Assembly: GCA_031292625.1 (NCBI GenBank)
Contig: JARLGU010000009.1
Location: 1 to 64,000, forward strand
DNA length: 64,000 bases
Origin: Capsulimonadaceae bacterium
GTDB lineage: Bacteria; Armatimonadota; Armatimonadia; Armatimonadales; Capsulimonadaceae
Direction of reading: 5' to 3'
Positions 29,186 to 31,862 of this stretch are shown piece by piece (the first letter of the stretch is position 1; every line of letters begins with the position of its first letter). A model generated the notes under the pieces. It was not told the origin of the DNA, made no database searches, and saw nothing but the letters and a program-made list of their open reading frames with translations. A program made the translations under genes and the position numbers.

Positions 29186-30436
29186 TTAGAAGTGCGCTGC
29201 GGCGCGCGTGCTCGACGGCGGAGTTTGGGCGCCGTCGCCTTCAGAGTCCGGACTGGCGATTGTGACCTGGTTGCGTCCAAGCGCCTTGGATCGGTAGAGG
29301 GCGCGGTCCGCCATGGCAAGCAGCTCGGTTGGATTGGTGGCATCGCGGGTCGAAGATGACACGCCGATGCTGATGGTTACGGAGGCGTTTTGCCAGGTGT
29401 CGGCTTCAACTCGGCGGCGAAGACGTTCGGCCAACTCATGTGCACCGTGGGGGCCGGTTGTCGGCAGGAGGATTGCGAACTCCTCGCCTCCGTAGCGCGC
29501 GACGACATCCGATGCGCGGCCGGCGTCGTCCAGTATTTGGGCAATGCGGGCGAGTATTGCATCGCCCGCCTGGTGTCCGAATGTGTCGTTATAGGCTTTA
29601 AAGTGATCGACGTCTATCATGAGAAGGGATATCGGCTCCGAATGGCGGGCAAGGAGGACGAATTCCGTCGCGAGCCGCTCGTGGAACGTTCGATGATTGA
29701 TCAAACCGGTCAGACCGTCGCGTTTCGCTAACTCGGCAAGCTCTCGATTGGCGTGCTCCAGGTTGCGTTTCTGTTCTTCCACAATCTGGACATAGTGATT
29801 CACCTGCGCTGAATGGTCGTGACGAACGATTAAGATCATCAGGCCAAGGACGACGACGACAAGCGCGACATCGGCAGTGACCAGAACCTGCGTCTCGTCC
29901 GACCGCTTTGTGACGTCTTCCATTTGTCGCGCGAGGACAATCTCGAGCCCTGCGCGAGTTTCCGCTATCTGCGTGCGGGCTGCTTGTGCGAGACGCGCCT
30001 GTAATCGTGACGGGACCTCGGGCGATCCGTCGTTTTCGCTCGAAGTCGTACGTGCGGAACGCAGTCGAACGGACACGGTCTGAGTGATTGCGCGCATGCG
30101 GCGTCGCAACGCCGGATCGTCTTTGGCGCAAGACTTCGCGCGCGTCAGGGCGGCGTAGATGTGCTTCTTTGCGGTATCGATAGACGCTACGTACGTGTCG
30201 TCCTGGGTGAGTAGGTATCCTTGCTCGCTTGCGTCGAGCGACGACAGGTCTGCCGCGAGATCGCTGAGAATTTGCTGAGCGTCGTACGTCCGATCGACCG
30301 CTGCGTTGTAGAGCTCAAGCCGGTTTGTCGCATAGAAGGTTAGCGGCGTAAGGAGAGAGAGGAGAATGATCGAGGCAAACGCGAGGGCCGATGCCAGGGA
30401 TACATGCACCTTGTGACTGTAGCTGCTCCTTACCAT
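29186..30436 (-). CDS. Membrane diguanylate cyclase (GGDEF), paralogue of the neighbour
   Basis: The 416-residue protein has the same layout as the cyclase at 27236: an N-terminal anchor, a periplasmic CHASE3-like helical region (YDAQQILSDLAADLSSLDAS), a second anchor (VALVVVVLGLMILIV), and a GGDEF domain with GGEEF and the I-site RASD five residues before it. The two share long blocks in the linker and cyclase domain (RELAELAKRDGLTGLINHR), so they arose by duplication, but their sensor regions differ. I chose the ATG at 30436, with GGAG 9 nt upstream. Confidence 0.87.
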   Translation of the reverse strand: MVRSSYSHKVHVSLASALAFASIILLSLLTPLTFYATNRLELYNAAVDRTYDAQQILSDLAADLSSLDASEQGYLLTQDDTYVASIDTAKKHIYAALTRAKSCAKDDPALRRRMRAITQTVSVRLRSARTTSSENDGSPEVPSRLQARLAQAARTQIAETRAGLEIVLARQMEDVTKRSDETQVLVTADVALVVVVLGLMILIVRHDHSAQVNHYVQIVEEQKRNLEHANRELAELAKRDGLTGLINHRTFHERLATEFVLLARHSEPISLLMIDVDHFKAYNDTFGHQAGDAILARIAQILDDAGRASDVVARYGGEEFAILLPTTGPHGAHELAERLRRRVEADTWQNASVTISIGVSSSTRDATNPTELLAMADRALYRSKALGRNQVTIASPDSEGDGAQTPPSSTRAAAHF

Positions 30437-30631
30437 ACCATCTTGCTCCATGCACACGTTAAGGGTCGTCGCGGATCCATTGTCGGACCGTGGTCCTATG
30501 ACAAACCTTGCATAACCGGCGCGACCGAGTATCCTATAGTAATGATCCCCCAAACGAACCGTAACTTGCAATACAGGTTTTCTGGCAGGAAAAATCAGTA
30601 ATTGGGCCTGAGTTCGAGCGTTGCCTCATGG

Positions 30632-30637
30632 TATAAT
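30632..30637 (+). promoter_or_regulatory. Extended -10 promoter (TGGTATAAT) of the riboswitch leader
   Basis: TATAAT at 30632-30637 is preceded by TGG, an extended -10 element; no clear -35 is visible. Transcription would begin near 30644. Confidence 0.65.
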
Positions 30638-30643
30638 ATTGGC

Positions 30644-30770
30644 AGAACGTAGCATAAGGAGAGGTTCCATTTTTTGGGAACCCAGCAACCGGGTTGGAGA
30701 ACCATCGGTGCTAGAGACATTGAGTCTCAATGCGCGGGAATTATCCCGAACAACATCTCCAAGTAACCGG
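30644..30770 (+). ncRNA. Candidate SAM-I/SAM-IV-clan riboswitch aptamer
   Basis: Conserved SAM-clan blocks occur in order: GAGAGG (30659-30664), CCCAGCAACC (30681-30690) and CGGTGCTA (30706-30713). A consistent fold exists. P1: CGT-A-GCAT (30648-30655) with ATGCGCG (30730-30736). P2: GGTTCC/GGAACC (30663-30682). P3 around a GGAG loop (30689-30708). P4: GAGAC/GTCTC (30714-30728). A hairpin GGGA/TCCC follows (30736-30747). The P3 loop segment TTGGAG (30694-30699) is complementary to CTCCAA (30757-30762), the tertiary contact expected of SAM-IV-like members. P2 lacks the kink-turn of SAM-I. The next gene has no obvious methionine function. Confidence 0.6.
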
Positions 30771-30781
30771 CAATCATCCTG

Positions 30782-30821
30782 AACCACTGCTACATTGGGT
30801 AGAAGTGGTTTTTTTGCGTTG
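30782..30821 (+). terminator. Intrinsic terminator downstream of the candidate riboswitch
   Basis: AACCACT-G-CTAC, loop ATTGG, GTAG-A-AGTGGTT form a long hairpin followed by a T-run. It lies between the aptamer and the next start codon, as in a transcription-terminating riboswitch. Confidence 0.8.
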
Positions 30822-30855
30822 GACAGTTCGCATTGAGGCGAAGGACGGTATCCAA

Positions 30856-31365
30856 ATGGATGAATTTACGAACGGCGTCCTGCCGGCAACCACGAAATCA
30901 AATTGGAACGAGGGCCGTTGCCAAGAAACGGTCTGTGAGGCTACCTGCCCGTACTGTGGATGGGTTTACGACCAACCAGAGTGGTGTATTCCCGCGCATG
31001 CTCGGTGCGCGCACCTTATTGCGACCGCTCAGTGGTCAGAGCGCCCCGGCTTGGCCGAGATTGCGACGTTGCGCGACGATCGCGGCGTCTGGCGTGCGTG
31101 GGCGCACGGTGAGTGCGAGGGTGGACGGAAATCGCTTGAAGCCGCGCTGCGCAACATCCTGGTAAAAGTCGTGTCCTCTACGGCGAGAACCGGCTCCACT
31201 GGCGGCGAGACGGTGTACAACTGCCGGTATTACTTTGCACGAAGGGCGGCGGCCGCTGTGGAGGATCTCAGGCGAACGGCGCATGGCGCGGTTGGGCAGG
31301 TGCTCATTCCAGGGCTAAGCCAGGTATCCTGTTGCCGGCCAAACTGTAGATCCGTGCACGCGTAG
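30856..31365 (+). CDS. Cys/His-rich protein of unknown function behind the riboswitch
   Basis: The 169-residue protein has no family that I recognise. The N-terminal half has a zinc-ribbon-like CPYC pair near residue 31 and further Cys and His (CIPAHARCAH, HGECEGG). The C-terminal half has a basic helical stretch and a CC-x3-C cluster near the end. It has no signal or membrane segment. The ATG follows AAGGACGG. The open frame extends upstream into the terminator and aptamer, so the earlier ATG at 30730 is unlikely to be used. Control by SAM would be predicted if the leader is a real SAM aptamer. Confidence 0.55.
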   Translation: MDEFTNGVLPATTKSNWNEGRCQETVCEATCPYCGWVYDQPEWCIPAHARCAHLIATAQWSERPGLAEIATLRDDRGVWRAWAHGECEGGRKSLEAALRNILVKVVSSTARTGSTGGETVYNCRYYFARRAAAAVEDLRRTAHGAVGQVLIPGLSQVSCCRPNCRSVHA

Positions 31366-31397: not shown

Positions 31398-31862
31398 ATG
31401 TCTGATCAACTCTTCAAAACCGTCATCGGCGTAATCGTCGCGTTCGCGCTTCTCATTGGAGGGCTAGCTCTGTGGCATAGCAAACAGGCAAGCCATGTTT
31501 CGACTCTCTCGTCGCCCATGAAGGCAGCGCAAGAGCCAAATCCAGCGCCTCGTAAGCCCACACAGCCGCTTGCGACATTATCCGTCGGAGTCGGACGTTC
31601 CGGCATTCTCCGTAACGGCAACGACCAGGTGGATGTTGCCGTAAACCAGGGGGCTCTTATCGAACTCGCCAATGCCGCCCGCGTTCAGAGCACGAAACGC
31701 TATTACGCCGTGTTCGACAAGGGCCGCGCCTTTCGCGTGGGCGATGGAACCGCAATCCGGGTGATTGGCGAGGGCATCTACAGCGGCCACGTTCGCATTC
31801 TGAGCGGCGCATCGGCCGGAAAGACCGGTTATGTTCCTCAGGAGTGGGTTTGCGAGCGGTAG
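31398..31862 (+). CDS. Small membrane-anchored protein with SH3-like C-terminus
   Basis: The 154-residue protein has a single N-terminal membrane segment (VIGVIVAFALLIGGLALW), a Pro/Ala-rich linker to about residue 60 and a beta-rich C-terminal domain ending GKTGYVPQEWVCER, reminiscent of bacterial SH3 folds. The ATG at 31398 is preferred over a TTG two codons earlier. It follows the unknown Cys-rich gene by 32 bp and may be co-transcribed with it. No enzymatic motif is visible. Confidence 0.6.
   Translation: MSDQLFKTVIGVIVAFALLIGGLALWHSKQASHVSTLSSPMKAAQEPNPAPRKPTQPLATLSVGVGRSGILRNGNDQVDVAVNQGALIELANAARVQSTKRYYAVFDKGRAFRVGDGTAIRVIGEGIYSGHVRILSGASAGKTGYVPQEWVCER

Follow-up and report, generated by a model that had tools for sequence, protein, structure and literature searches.

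A SAM-I/IV riboswitch ahead of an orphan cysteine-rich gene in the phylum Armatimonadota

The DNA analysed in this study (hereafter the window) is a stretch of 64,000 nucleotides, within which a SAM-I/IV riboswitch aptamer (positions 30647–30764, + strand) precedes two small genes of the same orientation. The first of these (30856–31365, +) is an open frame beginning with the ATG at 30856 and encoding a protein of 169 amino acids with 11 cysteines and a CPYC motif near the N terminus. It is preceded by a likely Shine-Dalgarno sequence, GAAGGAC (30840–30846, +). The second gene (31398–31862, +; approximately 154 amino acids) follows after a gap of 32 bases and is probably co-transcribed with the first. 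In its product one membrane helix was predicted by eye, and the SH3-like C terminus gave a weak match to the Pfam family SH3_2 (E 0.1, below the cut-off). No relative of this second gene was found in 40 related genomes; relatives of downstream genes exist in related genomes.

Signals for both the start and the premature end of transcription flank the aptamer. Upstream of it, an exact match to TGnTATAAT, TGGTATAAT (30629–30637, +), constitutes an extended -10 element, and from its position transcription is expected to start near 30644. Exact TGNTATAAT sites occur three times in the window, versus 0.48 expected by chance. The promoter scan found no consensus -35 ahead of the extended -10, which fits this type of promoter. 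Between the aptamer and the first gene there is an intrinsic terminator, ACCACTGCTAC-ATTGG-GTAGAAGTGGT-TTTTTT (30783–30815, +), in which the stem (30783–30809) is followed by the T run. The stem is more stable than its dinucleotide shuffles (z = -4.3; equally stable shuffles 0/200), and the terminator alone, which is unique within the window, amounts to -11.6 kcal/mol. A simple terminator scan of the window missed it, and a G.A mismatch within the stem is the probable reason. A preliminary description of this DNA had pointed to an extended -10 promoter, to a strong terminator ahead of the start codon and to an uncharacterised Cys-rich gene (not a methionine gene) as the controlled one, and all three were recovered here, the last without any family match or relative.

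When all 4227 Rfam families were searched for throughout the window, a single match exceeded any gathering score, i.e. that of RF01725 (SAM-I/IV) at the aptamer, with 49.4 bits versus a gathering score of 41.1. In a scan restricted to 601 bases (30400–31000) this match had an E-value of 4.5e-7, and no other Rfam family, neither RF00162 (SAM-I) nor RF00634 (SAM-IV) among them, was matched within that segment even at the permissive threshold of E ≤ 10. Genome-wide, RF01725 was matched only once in the source genome, at this very aptamer. The computed fold of the aptamer is more stable than its dinucleotide shuffles (z = -5.0; equally stable shuffles 0/200), and the conserved blocks GAGAGG, CCCAGCAACC and CGGTGCTA follow one another in this order.

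Helix P1 (30652–30733, +), delineated with the Rfam and R1 alignments and pair counts, is formed by GCAU (30652–30655) and AUGC (30730–30733), and thus comprises 4 bp only. P2 (30661–30683, +) is, according to the Rfam alignment and the fold, a single helix with neither an internal loop nor a kink-turn, while P3 (30684–30712, +; Rfam alignment) holds the conserved core GCAACC and GGUGC, the columns of which are invariant across 24 sequences. P4, evident from the sequence and the fold, is a hairpin of 5 bp (GAGAC-AUUGA-GUCUC, 30714–30728, +) and constitutes an insertion relative to the Rfam RF01725 consensus. P5 (CGGGA-AUUA-UCCCG, 30735–30748, +; Rfam alignment and fold) is a further hairpin, located 3' of P1. 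In the loop of P3, UUGGAGA (30694–30700, +) is the 5' strand of the pseudoknot PK-2; it is complementary over 7 bp to the 3' strand UCUCCAA (30756–30762, +). In the ligand-free computed fold, UCUCC of the latter strand pairs instead with GGAGA of J1/2 (30658–30662), possibly forming another contact of the off-state.

It was reported that P2 of SAM-I/IV aptamers has no internal loop (PMC2864571), that these aptamers lack PK-1 and possess P4, and that SAM-IV aptamers possess P2a/P2b, PK-1, PK-2 and P5 and lack P4 (PMC6890682). The window RNA has a single P2 helix without PK-1, together with P4, P5 and a 7-bp pseudoknot linking the P3 loop to the 3' tail, and is therefore placed in the class SAM-I/IV. 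It is a real riboswitch of this class, and belongs neither to SAM-I nor to SAM-IV. The preliminary description had named it SAM-I/SAM-IV-like, with the three conserved blocks in order, a foldable P1–P4 core plus one further hairpin, and a P3 loop complementary to a downstream CTCCAA. Membership of the SAM clan (through RF01725, not through RF00162 or RF00634), the order of the blocks and the complementarity (TTGGAGA to TCTCCAA) agree with our results, whereas the class had to be narrowed to SAM-I/IV, apart from SAM-I and SAM-IV proper, and the elements, foldable as stated, had to be renumbered as P1–P5, with P4 and P5 being the two hairpins located above.

Related aptamers were collected by an RF01725 scan of 291 genomes of the same phylum (Armatimonadota), which yielded 24 aptamers in 18 genomes. 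One of the 24, the below-threshold sequence of G055, was rejected as a SAM-I/IV member and is better described as SAM-I. In an unguided MAFFT alignment of the 24 aptamers, 74.4% of the pair cells were standard pairs, versus 31–43% when the partners were slid by 1–3 columns. Changes on both sides were found in 21 of the 34 pairs, and the covariation score was 0.245 versus 0.135 in shuffles. In P2, 95.8% of the cells were paired across the 24 sequences and all six pairs changed on both sides. The pseudoknot co-varies as well, although more weakly: when tails were swapped among all leaders, the complementarity observed, which is kept with changed letters in, e.g., G030 (GAAGAAC/GUUCUUC) and G191a (GAACC/GGUUC), was reached in 18 of 5000 swaps. 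Covariation among homologous leaders, the lack of which the preliminary description had listed among the signs against its proposal, was thus detected in the stems, and the loop-tail pairing proved to be coordinated too, if less strongly.

Comparison with SAM-I revealed, by alignment, that all positions equivalent to residues within 5 Å of SAM are kept but one. The exception is position 8 (SAM-I numbering), where A replaces C and another A lies opposite (A30656.A30729), which leaves the inner closing position of P1 mismatched, where the consensus is a C-G pair (present in 22 of the 24 related aptamers). SAM is, judging from the residues retained, the likely ligand; because P1 has A.A and not C-G next to this site, its binding is to be regarded as likely rather than proven.

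The 3' strand of P1 has a competing partner. Together with its flanks (30726–30737, +) it can pair over 11 bp with positions 30787–30799 (+), which overlap the 5' arm and the loop of the terminator. This antiterminator duplex amounts to -12.6 kcal/mol (shuffle p = 0.035 for a shorter version of it), and P1 (30652–30655/30730–30733) and the duplex (30726–30737/30787–30799) are mutually exclusive. SAM OFF switches are usually built on such exclusivity of P1 and an antiterminator, and by analogy the window riboswitch is likely to work in the same direction. When SAM is plentiful, its binding between P1 and P3 would, together with the pseudoknot, stabilise P1; with P1 stable, the terminator (30783–30815) would form and RNA polymerase would halt before reaching the gene. 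Under SAM shortage, P1 would leave its 3' strand free for the 11-bp pairing with the 5' part of the terminator, which would then fail, and the genes would be made. In this scheme, SAM would shut off a small operon composed of the 169-amino-acid Cys-rich orphan and the SH3-like protein with its putative membrane anchor.

We consider it very probable that this SAM-I/IV riboswitch turns off transcription of the small operon (the orphan and the SH3-like gene) when SAM is plentiful. The RF01725 score, the covariation, the pseudoknot, the agreement with the published architecture, the terminator and the competing 11-bp duplex all count for it. Also counted is the fact that the source genome has a separate SAM-I riboswitch (74.4 bits; G000:C38:45560–45709, - strand, locus L009) ahead of its canonical metK, and therefore control by SAM-responsive riboswitches is in use in this genome. 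Against it stand the 4-bp P1 with its A.A mismatch, the modest significance of the antiterminator taken by itself (p = 0.035), equilibrium folding, which always favours the terminator over the antiterminator, and the weak coding score of the target and its lack of homologues.

Some of these points could be read in another way. The A.A beside the ligand may have ended the binding of SAM or switched the aptamer to a different ligand (e.g. SAH), which would make it a decaying or altered SAM-I/IV aptamer exerting no SAM-responsive regulation. The conservation of the C-G pair in the other aptamers, the shortness of P1 and the weak coding score of the orphan gene below agree with such a fate, but every other core position is intact, the RF01725 score exceeds the gathering score, and both the terminator and the competing pairing are still present; moreover, the aptamer of G182b, which has also lost the inner P1 pair (C.A), retains the remaining architecture. 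We regard loss or change of the ligand as very unlikely. A different question is whether translation is controlled besides, or instead of, termination. Past the terminator, a segment adjoining the ribosome-binding site (30828–30839, +) is complementary over 11 bp to the 3' strand of P1, and the duplex of 30725–30735 with 30829–30839 amounts to -18.3 kcal/mol (shuffle p = 0.01). Inspection by eye revealed a hairpin at the ribosome-binding site past the terminator in several related leaders as well. However, GAAGGA itself stays free in the duplex, the strong terminator comes earlier, and a comparable post-terminator duplex with P1 is absent from most related leaders, for which reason this pairing was rejected as a conserved element. 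Control at the level of translation is thus considered improbable.

It may also be asked whether the 169-amino-acid frame is a gene at all. Its product has no Pfam, NCBIfam or PDB match, and no relative was found in one-per-species genome contigs, in viral contigs or in the 291 genomes of the phylum. Weak tblastn matches in G087 and G218 were rejected as relatives, as both contain internal stop codons, and that of G218 is also antisense to a threonine-aldolase-like frame. All-against-all comparison with 31 proteins encoded downstream of other SAM-I/IV leaders revealed nothing significant, and single-sequence structure prediction was uninformative (mean pLDDT 37). The coding score is 0.028 bits per codon, versus 0.2–0.36 for the neighbouring genes. 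This weak score, the lack of homologues and the elevated GC content at codon position 2 (0.57) would suit a frame that arose by chance, the true product then being the terminated leader RNA or the second gene (31398–31862). On the other hand, approximately 210 open codons are improbable at this GC content (5 in 10,000 per start point, as a rough estimate), the frame has the best coding score of all six, its Shine-Dalgarno sequence is suitably spaced, and it encodes the CPYC motif, which is typical of zinc ribbons. A chance frame is therefore, in our opinion, unlikely. Taken as a genuine gene under a SAM OFF switch, the orphan would encode something that the cell requires when SAM or methionine is limiting, perhaps a small zinc-binding protein.

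Many SAM-I/IV leaders of the phylum (those of G164, G191a, G145, G193a, G012, G020 and others) are followed by short genes that belong to no Pfam family, and an orphan target is therefore not unusual here. The arrangement of the leaders varies. In three loci, L042 (2033–2295), L043 (5141–4880) and L047 (2056–2318), a SAM-I/IV aptamer and its terminator are directly followed by a SAM-I aptamer. In L042, where this was tested, the tandem stands ahead of a YbjN-domain gene, and in L043 a further SAM-I aptamer (4146–4040) lies near a gene for an SNF2-type helicase. A tandem pair of SAM-I/IV aptamers precedes small unknown genes in L012 (1771–2021, - strand). In L044 (genome G115), 1133 bases past the aptamer, DUF3293 is fused to the C-terminal domain of MetK alone, the two remaining MetK domains being absent, and a DUF3293 gene is found behind the SAM-I/IV aptamer of G114. 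In L037, L048 and L049, ORFs of 24–33 codons, noticed by eye, separate the leader from the first large gene, those of the latter two loci being alike (PEL.G.DLYLACLA.F).

Other SAM-I/IV leaders of the phylum head an operon whose first gene encodes a MoxR-type AAA ATPase, followed by genes for a DUF2201 metallopeptidase/VWA-like protein (weak matches) and a divergent MetK paralogue. A search with the ATPase revealed 75 loci in many phyla, with a VWA gene nearby in 66 and a MetK paralogue in 57; the operon recurs in L065, L067, L072, L083, L087, L091, L097, L122, L124 and others of L064–L138. In 35 of 74 loci newly scanned with model R1, the genes have a SAM-clan aptamer upstream of them in the same orientation; where metK comes first in the operon, the aptamer stands ahead of metK. 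According to Rfam, these aptamers are of the SAM-I/IV or the SAM-I class (L087, with two aptamers). In L074, L077 and L101, all three missed by model R1, a SAM-II-type aptamer (SAM_alpha) was found upstream of the ATPase gene. The presence of structurally unrelated SAM riboswitch classes before one ATPase family suggests that SAM control was recruited independently. A virus origin of the module was considered and rejected, as only one relative was present in 2.9 million viral contigs. No paper linking SAM riboswitches with MoxR was found in the part of the literature that was covered. The source genome has no close MoxR relative, only weak generic MoxR matches, and the orphan is therefore not part of a MoxR operon. 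The MoxR ATPase-VWA-MetK-paralogue operon behind SAM-I, SAM-I/IV or SAM-II aptamers is the most interesting by-product of this analysis.

The switch per se is an ordinary member of a known riboswitch class; it is its target and the wider regulon that are unexplained. One could speculate, albeit with considerable doubt, that SAM-I/IV riboswitches mark a non-methionine SAM-starvation regulon consisting of small orphans and the widely transferred MoxR ATPase-VWA/metallopeptidase-like-MetK-paralogue module, in which the window orphan would be a stand-alone effector. The targets enumerated above suggest that, in this phylum, the genes under SAM-I/IV riboswitches often lie outside methionine metabolism, those of the MoxR-VWA-MetK-paralogue operon among them, and such leader targets provide testable handles on proteins without an assigned function. 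If SAM binding were confirmed, regulation would be the first functional clue to the orphan protein, i.e. that it is made when SAM is short.

Among the known systems, the window RNA is closest in its architecture to SAM-I/IV (RF01725), with which it shares the core, the uninterrupted P2, P3, P4, P5 and the pseudoknot joining the P3 loop to the 3' tail, but it differs from it in the innermost pair of P1, where A.A replaces C-G, and in its target, an orphan Cys-rich gene in place of a methionine or SAM gene. With SAM-I (S-box, RF00162) it has the SAM-binding core in common, whereas P2 of SAM-I is interrupted by a kink-turn, and both P5 and the P3-loop/3'-tail pseudoknot, present in the window RNA, are missing from SAM-I. 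With SAM-IV (RF00634) it shares P5 and the pseudoknot PK-2; however, SAM-IV has P2a/P2b and PK-1 and is devoid of P4, which the window RNA possesses.
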